Of a stretch of DNA of 56,742 nucleotides, positions 1-8,507 are shown piece after piece. The position numbers and the translations under genes were made by a program. The notes below the pieces were generated by a model that was not told the DNA's origin, made no database searches, and saw only the letters and a list, made by a program, of their open reading frames with translations. Source of the stretch: Candidatus Poseidoniaceae archaeon (GTDB lineage: Archaea; Thermoplasmatota; Poseidoniia; Poseidoniales; Poseidoniaceae). Within the stretch, counting starts at the first letter, position 1; each line of letters starts with the position of its first letter. The DNA lies in NCBI GenBank assembly GCA_938075675.1, contig CALJHE010000010.1, positions 1 through 56,742 of the forward strand. The letters are read 5' to 3'.

Positions 1-2009
1 AAACCACCTGTGTTCAACACATTCGACAGGATTTGATCGCCACAAGCCGATTGCGGCGAAGTCGAGTCTACTTGGTGAGTTACCATCGAGTAGCAACCGG
101 TGTAGTTCTGTCCCTGCATAGGGTAATCTTCGACGTACATCTCAGTGTTCAATGCCAACATTGCGTTGAGTATTGCGGTTCGAGTCTGAACATCAAGTGT
201 GGCTGGGTTGTACATCACTGGGTGAGAAGGTGCAGAACCGTAAGAAGGCAGCAAGATGTATTCTGATTCTGGAAGACACCACTCGGCATTCTCGCTTGCG
301 TCATCCTTACCGCAGTATGAATCTACAGTGGAATCCTTTGCAAAGGCGACATCGCCGACTCCTTCTGTCAAGCACTTCACTGCGCCGGAGTAGGAGTAGT
401 AAGGAGTACCTGATTCTGGAATACTTGCATTTTCGTTGAAGAACGAAGTGATGGTGTCACGTAGTGATTCAATATCATCCTGTGGACCAACGACTGGAGC
501 ATATCCTTGGGAGATAAGGTGGCCCATTGGCAGAAGCATGCCAGCAGATTTGAGCCAACCGGTGTGGCACGAGGTCTTTCCTGCCATCATTGCAAACGGA
601 TCTGTCGAATCATCATCGTCCAAGTAGGCGTTCGCAATGTCTGAACCGTTGAGAACGACTGCATGTGCGTCGTAGTGTGTGCGGCCGTCAGATTTGAGGT
701 CTGCAGCCATAGCCGCAAGGCCGTATTCTTTCCAACCAACCCACGCTGCGCCACCGTCCATGAAAGCGATGTCTGCATTACCAAAGCGAAGTGCTTCAAT
801 GATAGCGCCTTCAGAAGTGACTGGGTATAGCGTTACTGTCACGCCAGTTTGTTCAGCGATGAAATCTGCTAGAACTTGTGGGTTCTCTGCTGGGTTTTCG
901 TAATCGTCTTTCATTTCAAAAGCGATTCGAATGTTGGAAATGGTTGGAATCACTGAATCATTGATTTCGAACTTGGTATCGTAGTATGCCGAAATACCAG
1001 GTACGTCTTCAATCAAGTTTCCATAGGATGCAAGGTGTTCTACAGCAGTGGTAGCCGAAATTGCAGGTGTATTGAGAACATCACTGAGAATTGATTGACC
1101 CTCGGTTGAATCCTTCATAGCCACGAGTGCGTTTTGTACGAGCGTCATTGTATCTGCATCGCTGGTTGCCGGGTTGTACATCACCGGGTGGGAAGGCGCA
1201 TTTCCGTACGAAGGCAACAAGATGTAATCGGATTCTGGCAAGCACCATGCTTCATTGGTTGTTGCATCCTCATTACCGCAGTAAGAAGCGATGGTCGAAT
1301 CCTTTGCAAAGGCAACATCTCCGACGCCTTCGGAAAGGCACTTGACAGCACCGCTGTAGGAGTAGTATGGAGTTCCGGAGTCAGGTATGCTCGCATCTTC
1401 GTTGAAGAAATTCGTGATGGTCGAGCGCAACGATTCCACATCGTTTGCGTCTCCAATGACGTTTGCATACCCGTTGCCAATAAGGAAGCCCATTGGCAGG
1501 AGCATACCGGCTGATTTGAGCCATCCTGTGTGACACGAAGTCTTTCCAGCCATCAAAGAAAACGGATCGGTGGAAGGGTCATCGTCAAGGTGGGCTGCTG
1601 CAATTTCTGAATCCTTCAGAACGACTGCATGAGCGCTGTAGTAAGTTCGTCCATCGGACTTTTGATCTGCTGCAATTGCATCAAGGCCGTATTGTTGCCA
1701 ACCAACCCATGCTGCACCGCCATCCATGAAAGCGATGTCAGCATTTCCAAAGCGAAGAGCTTGGAGAGCAGCACCTTCGGAATCAATAGGATACAATGAA
1801 ACATCCATATTGAGTTCTTCACTCATATAATCTGCTAGTCTTTGAGGATTTTCATCAACGTTAGTATAATCGTCTTTGATGCTGTACGCAATGACGAAGT
1901 CTTCTAAGTTGCTTTCTTCTTTCTCTGAGCCGTCACTTAAACAGCCAGCAAGTGATGCTGTGGAGATTAGGAAGACAAGTATCGATGATTTTAGTGTTCG
2001 CGTTTTCAT
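1..2009 (-). CDS. Bilobal transferrin-like iron-binding lipoprotein (partial, C-terminus off the window)
   Basis: The gene reads without a stop from ATG at 2009 to the left edge (669 codons visible). Residues 1-23 form a lipoprotein signal with lipobox LAGC (Cys23). Two homologous lobes follow, about residues 36-347 and 358-669, with key residues at a constant offset of 322. Each lobe has transferrin signatures: DGG (Asp96/Asp418), TxY (Tyr124/Tyr446), SCHTG (Cys159, Thr161/Cys481, Thr483), YSGAxKC (Tyr218, Cys224/Tyr540, Cys546), GDVAFxKxST and PSH (His274/His596). These match human transferrin Asp63, Tyr95, Thr120, Tyr188 and His249 and the Cys118-Cys194 disulfide; the anion-site Arg124 is Lys165/Lys487. 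The inferred role is capture of ferric iron at the cell surface. The general alternative is a PhnD-type solute-binding protein, which shares the fold. The second lobe has an extra Cys pair (639, 656). Downstream genes lie outside the window. Confidence 0.88.
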   Translation of the reverse strand, partial: MKTRTLKSSILVFLISTASLAGCLSDGSEKEESNLEDFVIAYSIKDDYTNVDENPQRLADYMSEELNMDVSLYPIDSEGAALQALRFGNADIAFMDGGAAWVGWQQYGLDAIAADQKSDGRTYYSAHAVVLKDSEIAAAHLDDDPSTDPFSLMAGKTSCHTGWLKSAGMLLPMGFLIGNGYANVIGDANDVESLRSTITNFFNEDASIPDSGTPYYSYSGAVKCLSEGVGDVAFAKDSTIASYCGNEDATTNEAWCLPESDYILLPSYGNAPSHPVMYNPATSDADTMTLVQNALVAMKDSTEGQSILSDVLNTPAISATTAVEHLASYGNLIEDVPGISAYYDTKFEINDSVIPTISNIRIAFEMKDDYENPAENPQVLADFIAEQTGVTVTLYPVTSEGAIIEALRFGNADIAFMDGGAAWVGWKEYGLAAMAADLKSDGRTHYDAHAVVLNGSDIANAYLDDDDSTDPFAMMAGKTSCHTGWLKSAGMLLPMGHLISQGYAPVVGPQDDIESLRDTITSFFNENASIPESGTPYYSYSGAVKCLTEGVGDVAFAKDSTVDSYCGKDDASENAEWCLPESEYILLPSYGSAPSHPVMYNPATLDVQTRTAILNAMLALNTEMYVEDYPMQGQNYTGCYSMVTHQVDSTSPQSACGDQILSNVLNTGG

Positions 2010-3110: not shown

Positions 3111-4130
3111 ATGGAGGAAGTGGTTCTGCGGCTCGAAGGAGCAACATACAGGCACTCAGTCTACGCACCACGTCCACTGAAACCATGGCGTCGCATCAAA
3201 GGACCTGGTATCTTTGAGACCAATTTAACTCTTCAAAAAGGAACAATACTCGGCCTTGTAGGTCCAAACGGCGCGGGCAAAACGACCCTTCTACGCGTAC
3301 TAGCAGGGATTTTACCGGTACACCGCGGCCGTGTTTATTCGGGTAGCGAAGAAGTCGTGCTCGACCGACAGCAACTGCGCCAAAGTGTCGGACACATGCC
3401 TGAACAAGTTCGTTGGCAAGGAAGGAAGACTGTTCGACAAGCTCTGCTTGAACTTGGTGAGATGCGACATGCAAACGAAAAACGAATCGATGGAATTCTC
3501 AAACTCGTAGGCCTCAGTAGTCGGAAGGATTCTGCCCTAAGTGAATTAAGCCAGGGAATGCGTCAGCGGCTAACCCTTGCAGTCGCTCTGCTTGGCTCAC
3601 CAAAAATCCTCTTGCTGGACGAACCACTCAATGGTCTTGACCCCGTTGGAGCGGCAGCGTTTATTTCACTGCTCAAAACGTTGACTGGAAAAGGCGTTTC
3701 AATCGTCCTATCATCGCATCAAGTTGAAGGCCTTGCCGGAATTATTGACCGATTAGCATTGATGCACAGAGGACATATTCTGGCGGAAGGTACTCTAAGG
3801 GAAGTAGCGAAAGGTTTGCACCTTGACAGTAAGACCGAAATCAAAGGAACCGGTCAAGTTCCTCACTTTAGCAAATACGAAATTCAAGACGCGGATGTTG
3901 AAATCGAAATTCAAGACAACCATTGGTCTGCACGGCTCGAGCAGGCACAACCACACTTACTTGCCAAATTGATTAACGACGGGATTGAAATTACTGAGTG
4001 GGGTATTCGCCAACCCAATGTGGTCGAAATGCTGTGTGCTGCAACTGGACAATCCATTGAAGATGTAGGTCTCGAAGTAGCGTCCAACGCATATGTGCCG
4101 CTACGAACGTTTGGTGGTGAAGAAGAATGA
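3111..4130 (+). CDS. ABC transporter ATP-binding subunit (ABC-2 type exporter)
   Basis: 339 residues. Walker A GPNGAGKTT at 51-59, signature LSQGM at 146-150, Walker B LLLDEP at 167-172 and an SSHQ switch-loop His near 200 form a complete nucleotide-binding domain of the CcmA/multidrug class. An extra C-terminal region of about 100 residues is typical of ABC-2 exporters. The stop overlaps the start of the permease gene by four bases (ATGA), so the two are translationally coupled. ATP hydrolysis at the inner face would drive export through the 4127-4957 permease. The substrate cannot be read from sequence. Confidence 0.93.
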   Translation: MEEVVLRLEGATYRHSVYAPRPLKPWRRIKGPGIFETNLTLQKGTILGLVGPNGAGKTTLLRVLAGILPVHRGRVYSGSEEVVLDRQQLRQSVGHMPEQVRWQGRKTVRQALLELGEMRHANEKRIDGILKLVGLSSRKDSALSELSQGMRQRLTLAVALLGSPKILLLDEPLNGLDPVGAAAFISLLKTLTGKGVSIVLSSHQVEGLAGIIDRLALMHRGHILAEGTLREVAKGLHLDSKTEIKGTGQVPHFSKYEIQDADVEIEIQDNHWSARLEQAQPHLLAKLINDGIEITEWGIRQPNVVEMLCAATGQSIEDVGLEVASNAYVPLRTFGGEEE

Positions 4131-4957
4131 GCGATTTCACCCGTGTCATGAAATTGGCGAAACGTCTCACGTTTGAACGGATGTTCTCTACTCGGATGTA
4201 CATCATGCTCCCTGTTTTGTTGCTGTTTATCCCGGGCATGGCTTGGGGTTTTTCAGACCCAAACATTGTCCTACCCGGAGGCCATCAACCTGAGAGTGCA
4301 ATGGAGGTCCTTTTCTATGCCAGCCTCGGTGTTGTATTCGGAGCAACGATGTGCGCAGTTTTACTTTCCTATGACGCTGTGAGCCGTGAACGAGCAAGCG
4401 GGGTTTTGGAACTCCGACTTTCACAACCCATGCCGAGAGCGCATCAATCGTTGGCAATGATTCTCGGCTCATGGAAAGCGATTCTCATTCCAACATGGAT
4501 TCTTCTCATCATCTCTGTGTTCATCGTGAGATATCGGATGGGGGAATGGATTTCATTTGCTGACTCCCTCGTCTATTTCTCTTCGACTGCACTTATTTTG
4601 TTGTGGTACATTCTCTTCACTTTGTTAGCATCGTCATACACTCGAGAACAAGGAACAGCGATTTCGTTTGGTGTTGGAATGTGGTTTCTTTTCACTTTCC
4701 TTTGGGCATTAATCACAACAATGGTGGCCTTTGCGTCGGGCGTTTCCATTGGTCAAGAGAACGACGCTTCGTGGATCATGCTGGAAGGTGCTTTGGATTT
4801 ACTATCACCAAACGGCGTGTACCATCACTTGCTCGAAACACGATTACCACAAATTGACCGAGGTATTGTTGCGTGGCAAAGTTGGTTCATGGGCTTACTC
4901 TGGACGGTGCTCCCTTCTTGGGTATTCATTCGTAGAATGGAAAAGATACTTCCTTGA
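4127..4957 (+). CDS. ABC-2 type permease subunit
   Basis: 276 residues with about six hydrophobic segments and the ABC-2 feature SYDAVSRER, a cytoplasmic segment after the second helix that contacts the ATPase. It overlaps the ATPase gene by four bases. The surface-protein gene at 4984 starts only 26 bases after its stop, so all three may be one operon, with the surface protein a possible cargo or partner (inference). Confidence 0.9.
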   Translation: MSDFTRVMKLAKRLTFERMFSTRMYIMLPVLLLFIPGMAWGFSDPNIVLPGGHQPESAMEVLFYASLGVVFGATMCAVLLSYDAVSRERASGVLELRLSQPMPRAHQSLAMILGSWKAILIPTWILLIISVFIVRYRMGEWISFADSLVYFSSTALILLWYILFTLLASSYTREQGTAISFGVGMWFLFTFLWALITTMVAFASGVSIGQENDASWIMLEGALDLLSPNGVYHHLLETRLPQIDRGIVAWQSWFMGLLWTVLPSWVFIRRMEKILP

Positions 4958-7094: not shown

Positions 7095-8507
7095 ATGTTT
7101 ACGGGTGTAATTGAGTCCAAAAGCCATGAAGGTGGTTTTCTTGTTTCATTCACCGGTTCATCACCGGCCTTGGAATCAATAATAATCAACGCTGAGTCCG
7201 GGATTTACATCGGTAAAGTCGATGGAGTCCTGGGCAATACCAACGCTCCACTCGCTCACGTGGCCCATATCGACCGAAAACTGGACCTCGACGCACTCAT
7301 CGGAGCGGAAGTTGGAATTCGTCCAAAAAAACAACGTGAAGAACGAAGCCGTGGCTCTGATAGAGACGGTCGAAGAGGAAACGACGGAGGATACCAGAGC
7401 AGAGACCGACAAGGTGGACGATTCGATCGAAACGACCGAGGCAACAGAGGCGACAACCGTAGCGGTGGCGACTGGGATTGTCCAAAGTGTCAAAATTCAA
7501 ACTTCGCATTCCGAAACGAATGCAACCGATGCGGTGAACCTCGCGGCGGTGGAGGCCGTGGACGAAGCGATGAGCGTCGGGGCGGTCGAGACGACCGTGG
7601 ATACCAGAGCAGAGACCGACAAGGTGGACGATTCGATCGAAACGACCGAGGCAACAGAGGAGACAACCGTAACGGTGGCGACTGGGATTGTCCGAAGTGT
7701 CAAAATTCAAACTTCGCATTCCGAACCGAATGCAACCGATGCGATGAACCTCGCCGTGGTGGCGGTGGAGGCCGTGGACGAAGCGATGAGCGTCGAGGCG
7801 GTCGAGACGACCGTGGTAACCGAGGCGGCCGAGGTGGAGAAATCTACAATGACAACGATTGGGATTGTCCGAAGTGTCAAAATTCAAACTTCGCATTCCG
7901 AAACGAATGCAACCGATGCGGGGAGCCTCGTGGCGGTGGAAGCCGTGGACGAAGCGACGACCGTCGAGGTGGTCGAGACAACCGTGGCCAAGGAAACAGA
8001 AGCGGAGACCGTGGAGGATATCAGAGCCGCGACCGACAAGGTGGAAGGTTCGACCGAGGCAACAGAGGCGGCAACGAAGACCGACGTGATGGCGACTGGG
8101 ATTGTCCAAAGTGTCAAAATTCAAACTTCGCATTCCGAAACGAATGCAACCGATGCGGCGCATCACGTGGCGGCGGTGGCGGTGGCGGCGGCCGTGGACC
8201 TCGAGGGTACACCCGAGATAGACCGCAACGAAGCGACTCTGGAGGACGACCTCCCCGAAGAGATTCTGGAGAGCGACCACCACGAAGAGAAGGCGATAGA
8301 CCACCAAGAAGGGACGGTCGAGACCGACGAAATGAACGGGGGTATCAAGACCGTGGATCATACAATCAAAATCGTTCTCGAGGAGACGAGCGTCAGCCAG
8401 AACGCAAATCCCGAGAGCCACGCACATTTCGCAAATCCCGAGGAAACGGCCCCGGCCATGCCCACAACCGGCCTCCGAAACCATTGACTCGAGACCGAGA
8501 CGATTGA
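7095..8507 (+). CDS. gar1: Gar1-like H/ACA RNP protein fused to four RanBP2 zinc fingers and RGG tracts
   Basis: 470 residues. Residues 1-80 match the Gar1 RNA-binding barrel (GFLVSF, then IGKVDGVLGNTNAP, equivalent to the GKVxDVFGPV core of archaeal Gar1). Gar1 serves in H/ACA pseudouridylation particles. Archaeal Gar1 is usually only about 80-100 residues. Here four RanBP2-type fingers follow, with Cys at 129/132/143/146, 199/202/213/216, 258/261/272/275 and 337/340/351/354, each preceded by DWD and containing NFAFR. RGG/RDR-rich linkers join them, and residues 360-470 are Arg/Gly/Pro-rich. The finger closely resembles those of FUS and ZRANB2, which bind GGU-containing RNA. GGTG at 7086-7089 supports the ATG. 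A TPR gene follows 13 bases downstream. Confidence 0.88.
   Translation: MFTGVIESKSHEGGFLVSFTGSSPALESIIINAESGIYIGKVDGVLGNTNAPLAHVAHIDRKLDLDALIGAEVGIRPKKQREERSRGSDRDGRRGNDGGYQSRDRQGGRFDRNDRGNRGDNRSGGDWDCPKCQNSNFAFRNECNRCGEPRGGGGRGRSDERRGGRDDRGYQSRDRQGGRFDRNDRGNRGDNRNGGDWDCPKCQNSNFAFRTECNRCDEPRRGGGGGRGRSDERRGGRDDRGNRGGRGGEIYNDNDWDCPKCQNSNFAFRNECNRCGEPRGGGSRGRSDDRRGGRDNRGQGNRSGDRGGYQSRDRQGGRFDRGNRGGNEDRRDGDWDCPKCQNSNFAFRNECNRCGASRGGGGGGGGRGPRGYTRDRPQRSDSGGRPPRRDSGERPPRREGDRPPRRDGRDRRNERGYQDRGSYNQNRSRGDERQPERKSREPRTFRKSRGNGPGHAHNRPPKPLTRDRDD
7470..8156 (+). repeat. Four tandem zinc-finger/RGG coding repeats inside gar1
   Basis: Nearly identical finger segments recur at offsets of 70, 59 and 79 codons, with similar Arg/Gly linkers. 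The nucleotide repeats and biased composition also keep other frames open on both strands across this stretch. Confidence 0.85.

Follow-up and report, generated by a model that had tools for sequence, protein, structure and literature searches.

Transferrins are known mainly from animals and some algae, and one animal member, melanotransferrin, is lipid-anchored. Phytotransferrin is described as binding Fe(III) in a carbonate-dependent manner and as sharing with transferrin an origin among phosphonate-binding proteins (PMC7676907), and the general link between transferrins and phosphonate-binding proteins is therefore already in print; another paper calls phytotransferrin convergently evolved (PMC7972479), and the diatom phytotransferrin ISIP2A is said to contain the PF07692 domain (PMC7966952). 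Here we analyse a stretch of DNA of 56,742 nucleotides from a Candidatus Poseidoniaceae archaeon (hereafter, the window), which is all of contig C10 of a genome (G000) that is 90% complete, and, in particular, a gene on its minus strand that runs off its left edge. Judging from the sequence, it is very probable that the product of this gene is a transferrin-family protein that is anchored in the membrane, binds ferric iron and serves as the solute-binding protein of an ATP-binding cassette (ABC) importer of the PhnCDE type. Taken as a whole, the interpretation as a transferrin-family lipoprotein, predicted to bind Fe(III), working with a PhnCDE-type importer and under DtxR-type control, is well supported and is the most likely one.

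The frame is open from a Met codon at position 2009 to base 3, i.e. over 669 residues, its 3' end being cut by the end of the contig. A first-pass annotation, made from the letters of the window, had described a lipoprotein frame of at least 669 codons with two homologous lobes, whose equivalent residues are spaced exactly 322 residues apart, and all three statements hold. Namely, the frame starts with a lipobox-containing signal peptide, 201 of the 275 aligned pairs of lobe 1 and lobe 2 residues are identical (73%), and seven motifs (FMDGG, GRT[YH]Y, SCHTGWLKSA, YYSYSGAVKC, AFAKDST, WCLPES and APSHPVMY) occur in two copies each, every pair lying 322 residues apart. The same annotation had allowed for a third lobe past the contig edge, which we reject: a near-identical ortholog with the same Met start, in genome G005 (locus L024), stops at 704 residues, and therefore only about 35 residues are missing from the window protein. 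The parts of the gene are as follows.

3 to 2009, minus strand: two-lobed transferrin-like lipoprotein gene, 669 codons, about 35 codons short in comparison with the ortholog
1941 to 2009, minus strand: signal peptide with lipobox SLAGC, Cys23 being the predicted lipidated residue (from sequence)
945 to 1898, minus strand: lobe 1, residues 38-355 (Pfam, ortholog alignment, structure model)
3 to 932, minus strand: lobe 2, residues 360-669, its C-terminal end missing (Pfam, ortholog and lobe alignment)

Both lobes carry the equivalents of all four iron ligands (Asp, Tyr, Tyr and His), of the Thr of the anion site (in SCHTG) and of the Cys pair in HMMER alignments with lactoferrin and ovotransferrin, as the first-pass annotation had proposed, the Cys residues being seen and the bond between them predicted. 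For the numbering (Asp63, Tyr95, Thr120, Arg124, Tyr188, His249, Cys118 and Cys194) and for the roles of these residues we assume those of textbook transferrin. The one departure, Lys in place of Arg124, had also been noticed before and is found in both lobes. The positions, taken from the alignments, are these.

1722 to 1724, minus strand: Asp96 of lobe 1, equivalent to Asp63
1638 to 1640, minus strand: Tyr124 of lobe 1, equivalent to Tyr95
1515 to 1535, minus strand: anion-site segment of lobe 1, with Cys159 (Cys118), Thr161 (Thr120) and Lys165 at the Arg124 position
1338 to 1358, minus strand: lobe 1 from Tyr218 (Tyr188) to Cys224 (Cys194)
1188 to 1190, minus strand: His274 of lobe 1, equivalent to His249
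756 to 758, minus strand: Asp418 of lobe 2, equivalent to Asp63
672 to 674, minus strand: Tyr446 of lobe 2, equivalent to Tyr95
549 to 569, minus strand: anion-site segment of lobe 2, with Cys481, Thr483 and Lys487
372 to 392, minus strand: lobe 2 from Tyr540 (Tyr188) to Cys546 (Cys194)
222 to 224, minus strand: His596 of lobe 2, equivalent to His249

These residues are widely kept among 69 aligned lobes from the window and 40 fetched regions, which, since the regions were picked by their match to the Pfam family Transferrin (PF00405), are not a blind sample and are interrelated, some being nearly alike. In particular, the D63 column holds D in 55 of the 69 lobes and E in another 8; Tyr is conserved at Y95 in 60 lobes and at Y188 in 56, His at H249 in 55 and Thr at T120 in 67, while the Cys118 and Cys194 equivalents are both present in all 69. 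The five residues D, Y, Y, H and T are kept together in 47 lobes, or in 53 if E is counted as D; the remaining 16 are two fragments without the D63 column and 14 lobes from seven two-lobed proteins. It should be noted that this alignment also holds evidence that weighs against ferric-iron binding of the transferrin kind. The Arg124 column is Lys in 52/69 lobes and Arg in none. What is more, the seven two-lobed relatives (L031, L032, L033, L034, L040, L058 and L062) have lost ligands: H249 is replaced by D or N in the first lobe of all seven and Tyr188 by F, L or S in that of six, and their second lobes are without most or all of the ligands. These paralogs retain the Cys pair, and every genome that has one also encodes a single-lobed protein with the whole ligand set, in the same locus for six of the seven and, for L058, in locus L057 of the same genome. 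Some animal transferrin lobes have lost their iron sites, and, by analogy, the loss of several ligands together in one lobe resembles this.

With regard to family, the window protein matches PF00405 with an E-value of 3e-43 and 148.7 bits (cut-off 20.3), and a single-sequence phmmer search with it against the PDB finds the lactoferrin chain 1b1x_A at 1.1e-29. A family profile (A1), built from 13 diverse lobes, found 120 PDB sequences with E-values up to 10, the best 60 of which all belong to the transferrin family: transferrins, lactoferrins, ovotransferrins, melanotransferrin and one inhibitor of carbonic anhydrase, which we take to be a transferrin relative, with duck ovotransferrin at the top (1.6e-45). 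Could the protein instead be an ordinary PhnD-type binder of an oxyanion such as phosphonate, phosphite or phosphate, which merely resembles transferrin? The Pfam family Phosphonate-bd (PF12974) is nearly equal in score, at 1.8e-42 and 145.8 bits (cut-off 27), and in the distant single-lobed relatives L064, L065, L118 and L132 it lies ahead (102.6-120.9 bits as against 68.3-85.2 for PF00405, both cut-offs being passed). The first-pass annotation had suggested comparing the two families lobe by lobe, a better PhnD-type match together with scattered ligand residues being taken to speak against transferrin. The outcome is divided: PF12974 leads in lobe 1 alone (79.9 vs 78.2 bits), PF00405 leads in lobe 2 alone (76.6 vs 70.2 bits) and, slightly, for the whole protein, so that a better PhnD-type match does not clearly emerge. 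However, more specific models point away from PhnD. Namely, the window protein stays under the cut-offs of the PhnD model TIGR03431 (69.6 vs 261.1 bits) and of TIGR01098, a phosphate/phosphite/phosphonate binding subfamily (97 vs 112.05 bits). Profile A1 gives 103.3 bits to a single ovotransferrin N-lobe (1nnt), 50.8 to a PhnD-like protein of Roseibium and just 21.1 to PhnD of E. coli; the last matches PF12974 at 1.1e-79 and PF00405 not at all, and of its four ligand positions three are occupied by G, Y and D and the fourth by H (the last judged by eye).

The predicted fold adds to both sides of this comparison. An AlphaFold2 model of lobe 1 (alignment A2, 55 rows) has a mean predicted local distance difference test score (pLDDT) of 93.0 and a predicted template modelling score (pTM) of 0.86, and a Foldseek search with it against the PDB gives, in order of E-value, human melanotransferrin first and human lactoferrin second; the best 50 rows comprise 44 transferrins, five PtxB and one AioX, i.e. 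the model has the fold of a transferrin lobe. On the other side, PtxB is the third match, and the template modelling (TM) scores, which are moderate when normalised by query length (0.47-0.66), are higher for the PtxB rows (0.73-0.77) than for every listed transferrin row (at most 0.65) when normalised by target. Among the matches are solved lactoferrin N-lobes with the substitutions R121S, R121E and R121D, and the fold therefore tolerates loss of the Arg. As far as a model can tell, the fold places lobe 1 between the transferrin and PtxB-type families, and the sequence and ligands place it with transferrin. A model of both lobes was weak (pLDDT 71.2, pTM 0.48) and was set aside. With a PF00405 match above cut-off, and transferrins as the best PDB matches of the profile and of the fold, the earlier proposal of an archaeal counterpart of transferrin stands.

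Relatives of the gene numbered 292 in named genomes, and in the best 80 of these 292 loci we located 81 transferrin-like genes, 29 two-lobed and 52 not. The transferrin gene is followed by an ABC ATPase and then a permease in 68 of the 81 cases, a count in which the ATPase cluster is broad and the permease cluster specific, and single-lobed and two-lobed forms fill the same slot in the operon. As for the 13 exceptions, seven lie at or near the end of their stretch (L126, L138, L141, L146, L164, L167 and L171), two have only one of the two partners after the transferrin gene (L098 and L116), one is the first of two tandem transferrin genes, with ATPase and permease after the second (L134), and three have neither (L102, L118 and L132). 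In the window, the position corresponding to the permease lies past the contig edge, where the first-pass annotation had left room for a partner; the gene order upstream of the window gene is the same as in L024, and in the orthologs an ATPase and a PhnE-type permease do follow downstream. In L024 this permease passes the PhnE model TIGR01097 (224.7 vs 216.7 bits) and the ATPase is PhnC-like, below cut-off; in L064, from another lineage of Thermoplasmatota, the permease reaches 231.2 bits with the same model. The partner is thus of the phosphonate type in both loci tested, which is a further argument for the PhnD-type alternative. It is countered by the absence of PhnJ, of the C-P lyase, from all 40 relatives' genomes searched, the E. 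coli control being positive, and by the iron-type genes in the neighbourhood that are described below. All things considered, we find it quite improbable that the protein is a PhnD-type oxyanion binder, and we return to it as a transferrin-family protein.

The setting of the gene suggests how it may be regulated. Two palindromes precede its start codon, and both fit the pattern TTAGG(N4)CCTAA.

2025 to 2040, read on the minus strand: palindrome TTTAGGGCGGCCTAAA, the DtxR-like operator nearest the gene (sequence search)
2060 to 2075, read on the minus strand: palindrome TTTAGGGTGGCCTAAA, a second DtxR-like operator (sequence search)

The DtxR consensus is given as TTAGGTTAGCCTAACCTAA in a review (PMC7762939). 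The exact 16-mer TTTAGG(N4)CCTAAA has two sites each in the window's genome and in G073, a one-contig genome, all four before this gene, and its reversed control has no site in either genome. With a search range from 180 bases before to 60 bases after the first start codon of a frame, TTAGG(N4)CCTAA lies near the start of 120 of 148 transferrin-like genes. After removal of identical proteins and of short or N-rich stretches, the box is found in 100 of 123 such genes as against 62 of 1211 other open reading frames in these loci, some of which share the same upstream stretch, and the reversed control gives 0 and 0. Relatives L132 and L071 carry TTAGGTTAGCCTAA. Matches to the DtxR family (PF02742) number one each in G000 (on contig C4, L215:6722-7405), G073, G005 and G051 and two in G308; in a marine group III locus (L069) a divergent gene of this family lies 125 bases from the transferrin gene, and in Natronococcus occultus another lies upstream of a frameshifted relative, which is followed by an ATPase and PhnE. 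DtxR-family proteins would presumably bind these boxes. Several results tell against such control: with two mismatches allowed, TTAGGGYGGCCTAA has 11 matches in the window's genome and 23 in the reversed control, i.e. no excess; 23 of the 123 genes are without an exact box; and the genes labelled as from the bacterial lineage UBP7 (L102 and L118) have no box even with one mismatch. As a separate observation, the frameshifted Natronococcus gene (L181:7833-8857) lies on a plasmid, and by eye both Cys residues of the pair are absent from it.

If these elements work together, one can envisage the following mechanism. Each lobe would clamp a single Fe(III) between Asp, two Tyr and His; carbonate, as the second anion, would sit at the SCHTG turn, held by Thr and by Lys in place of Arg. 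The lobes would then pass the iron on to the permease and ATPase whose genes follow immediately in the operon, and a DtxR-family repressor would probably shut the operon, by way of the two palindromes, when iron is plentiful.

The neighbourhood in the relatives is largely that of iron. In L032 a ferritin-domain protein is encoded directly before a single-lobed transferrin. In L204 genes for Peripla_BP_2, FecCD, an ATPase, flavodoxin, a CREG/DUF2470 protein, an ATPase and a permease stand in line, after which come, on the other strand, a gene of the GSDH family and a transferrin gene with boxes. L206, in genome G003, has boxes and a lipoprotein matching Fea1 (PF07692), followed by a cluster like that of L204; no transferrin gene lies in the 17 kb fetched for this locus, that of G003 being elsewhere (L030). 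L209, in G002, is similar, and its transferrin gene may sit just past the contig edge. Fea1 was found in four of five scanned proteins of this neighbour family, the fifth being a fragment, and of its seven genes in the first sets six have the box. The Fea1 gene of L032 is directly upstream of the two-lobed gene with lost ligands; archaeal Fea1 lipoproteins adjoin or replace the transferrin gene. In L118 the order is a FecCD permease, ATPase, Peripla_BP_2, a protein of the PNPOx fold and heme oxygenase, and then the transferrin gene. FecCD exceeds its cut-off in eight of the 40 relatives' genomes.

Could the same site instead serve to import a different metal, manganese being the likeliest? Two observations speak for this and against iron. 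Namely, alphaproteobacterial plasmid relatives adjoin mntR and keep the equivalents of Tyr95, Tyr188 and His249 (by eye and partly aligned), and the DtxR-family protein of L069 has MntR as its nearest NCBIfam model (97.3 bits, cut-off 350), so that manganese is compatible with the gene context. However, a transferrin-type site with hard ligands and an anion turn, together with ferritin, FecCD, heme oxygenase, flavodoxin and Fea1 as neighbours, favours iron, and we regard a manganese importer as improbable. The plasmid operons themselves (L182:3498-8293 and L183:1523-6311) comprise mntR, a di-haem peroxidase, a PhnD-like protein, an ATPase and PhnE, and are possibly a metal importer that has been named as a phosphonate one.

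Further observations on these loci deserve mention in their own right. The UBP7-labelled locus in which FecCD and heme oxygenase genes lead up to a single-lobed transferrin spans L118:2-4965, and Fea1-matching lipoproteins occur in or near loci with DtxR boxes at L206:12212-14068, L209:9222-10490, L032:8874-10109 and L060:13121-14770. At L032:11440-13759 and L030:7911-10195 a single-lobed transferrin with an upstream box is followed by a lipoprotein, with no ABC genes directly adjoining; the lipoprotein in L032 matches GSDH, and the transferrin before it is the second paralog of that locus. In the window an ABC-2 type pair of ATPase and membrane protein (3111-4957) is encoded upstream of the transferrin gene and on the opposite strand to it, and such a pair adjoins the transferrin gene in many relatives. 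Finally, a Gly/Arg-rich frame at 7095-8507 of the window has four zinc ribbons of the RanBP type (PF00641, 1.4e-33).

How widespread are such genes? PF00405 matches were found in 46 of 59 near relatives. Across the phylum 73 of 292 genomes have one, all but three of these 73 belonging to the window's class, and transferrin-like genes occur in three families of this class and in three more families of the phylum. Elsewhere, PF00405 is matched in two of three genomes of the UBP7 lineage and in one of 194 genomes of the phylum of the Woesearchaeota-labelled L132 genome, which may reflect a binning error; L102, L118, L132, L152 and L173 bear labels given by their submitters, some of which may be wrong. 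None of 14 control genomes has a match. Bacterial coverage consisted of these controls, the UBP7 lineage and plasmid records searched by tblastn with one relative, L064; among the best 30 of 43 plasmid records, its closest match is from Natronococcus (40.6% identity), and the others listed are annotated as phosphonate-type binding proteins (24-27% identity). In viral contigs, 22 stretches matched a search pattern and none encodes a relative. A eukaryotic contig or contamination was rejected as a source, since G073, a one-contig genome of 2.06 Mb, has the same kind of gene in the same operon.

A tree of 37 rows, comprising archaeal and UBP7 lobes, four animal lobes, seven PhnD-type proteins and two MntR-flanked proteins, separates the prokaryotic and animal lobes from the PhnD-type and MntR-flanked proteins with support of 100/100. 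All animal lobes fall into a single group (100/99), which holds no archaeal lobe and in which the N lobes pair with each other, as do the C lobes; the prokaryotic rows alone are grouped with 69/76. Topology tests, in which the groups were named after the tree had been seen, long branches were flagged, and the animal rows came from two animals and included one less than half filled, did not reject the animal lobes together with five outlying prokaryotic rows (p 0.34) and rejected the animal C lobes together with archaeal lobes (p 0.022). The support of 69/76 and the p-value of 0.34 allow both a sister and an ancestor placement, and the rejection of the C-lobe topology fits a separate doubling of the lobe in archaea and animals; two-lobedness probably arose separately in the two.

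The first-pass annotation had offered a counterpart of transferrin, a relative of its ancestor or a transfer; the first two fit the tree, the profiles and the fold, and a transfer from animals is unlikely because of the ABC operon, the spread over archaea and one bacterial-labelled lineage, and the one-contig genome. The idea that the archaeal gene was acquired horizontally from an animal or other eukaryote draws on the strong matches to animal transferrin over much of the lobe. It would have to accommodate the usual ABC partner across six families of the phylum and the UBP7 genomes, the 52 of 81 genes that are not two-lobed, and the single group of animal N and C lobes, and we hold it to be very improbable indeed. 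As to the origin of the whole family, we tentatively suggest, as a possibility that may well prove wrong, that prokaryotes first evolved ferric-carbonate capture of the transferrin type, in the binding protein of a PhnCDE-type importer, and that eukaryotes obtained it from them, that archaea doubled the lobe independently of animals, and that archaeal loci with DtxR boxes may preserve the setting in which the two eukaryotic ferric-carbonate families originated, since both of these, PF00405 and Fea1, occur there as alternative or paired lipoproteins. Among the matches listed from the open-licence literature no paper described a transferrin in archaea or an operon of this kind. The trees of McQuaid et al. 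2018, the most relevant paper, may include prokaryotic sequences.

These findings suggest that animals and algae are not alone in capturing iron in the manner of transferrin. An origin of transferrin among bacterial-type binding proteins was earlier inferred from distant relatives, according to a review (PMC7676907); the present loci add single-lobed and two-lobed members from prokaryotes that have all of the ligand residues and whose operons include an importer and DtxR-type boxes, and they make this origin testable by sequence and by binding assays. Iron is scarce in ocean surface waters. Among the planktonic archaea of these waters, Marine Group II is described as the most abundant (PMC6461757), and, if binding depended on carbonate, as it does in diatoms, ocean acidification could affect iron uptake in archaea as well.

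Compared with known systems, the window protein shares with the animal family (serum transferrin, lactoferrin, ovotransferrin and melanotransferrin) the fold, the Asp-Tyr-Tyr-His set, the Thr, the Cys118/Cys194 pair and the two lobes, as well as, with melanotransferrin, the lipid anchoring, and differs in being an archaeal lipoprotein with an ABC permease and ATPase as partners, in having Lys for Arg124 and in the 73% identity of its lobes. With PhnD-type proteins (PF12974, TIGR03431), which work with PhnC and PhnE, it has in common the fold superfamily and the PhnE-type permease and PhnC-like ATPase downstream; unlike them, it stays below the PhnD model cut-offs and has the transferrin ligand set, with no PhnJ in the 40 genomes searched. 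The MntR-flanked PhnD-like system on plasmids of Roseibium and Leisingera likewise has a binding protein, an ATPase and PhnE, and the Tyr95, Tyr188 and His249 equivalents; in contrast to the window protein, its PhnD-like proteins are without the Asp63 equivalent, the SCHTG turn and a PF00405 match. Finally, phytotransferrin (ISIP2A/Fea1, PF07692) belongs to another Pfam family than the window protein, and it is archaeal lipoproteins of that very family that lie in the same loci.

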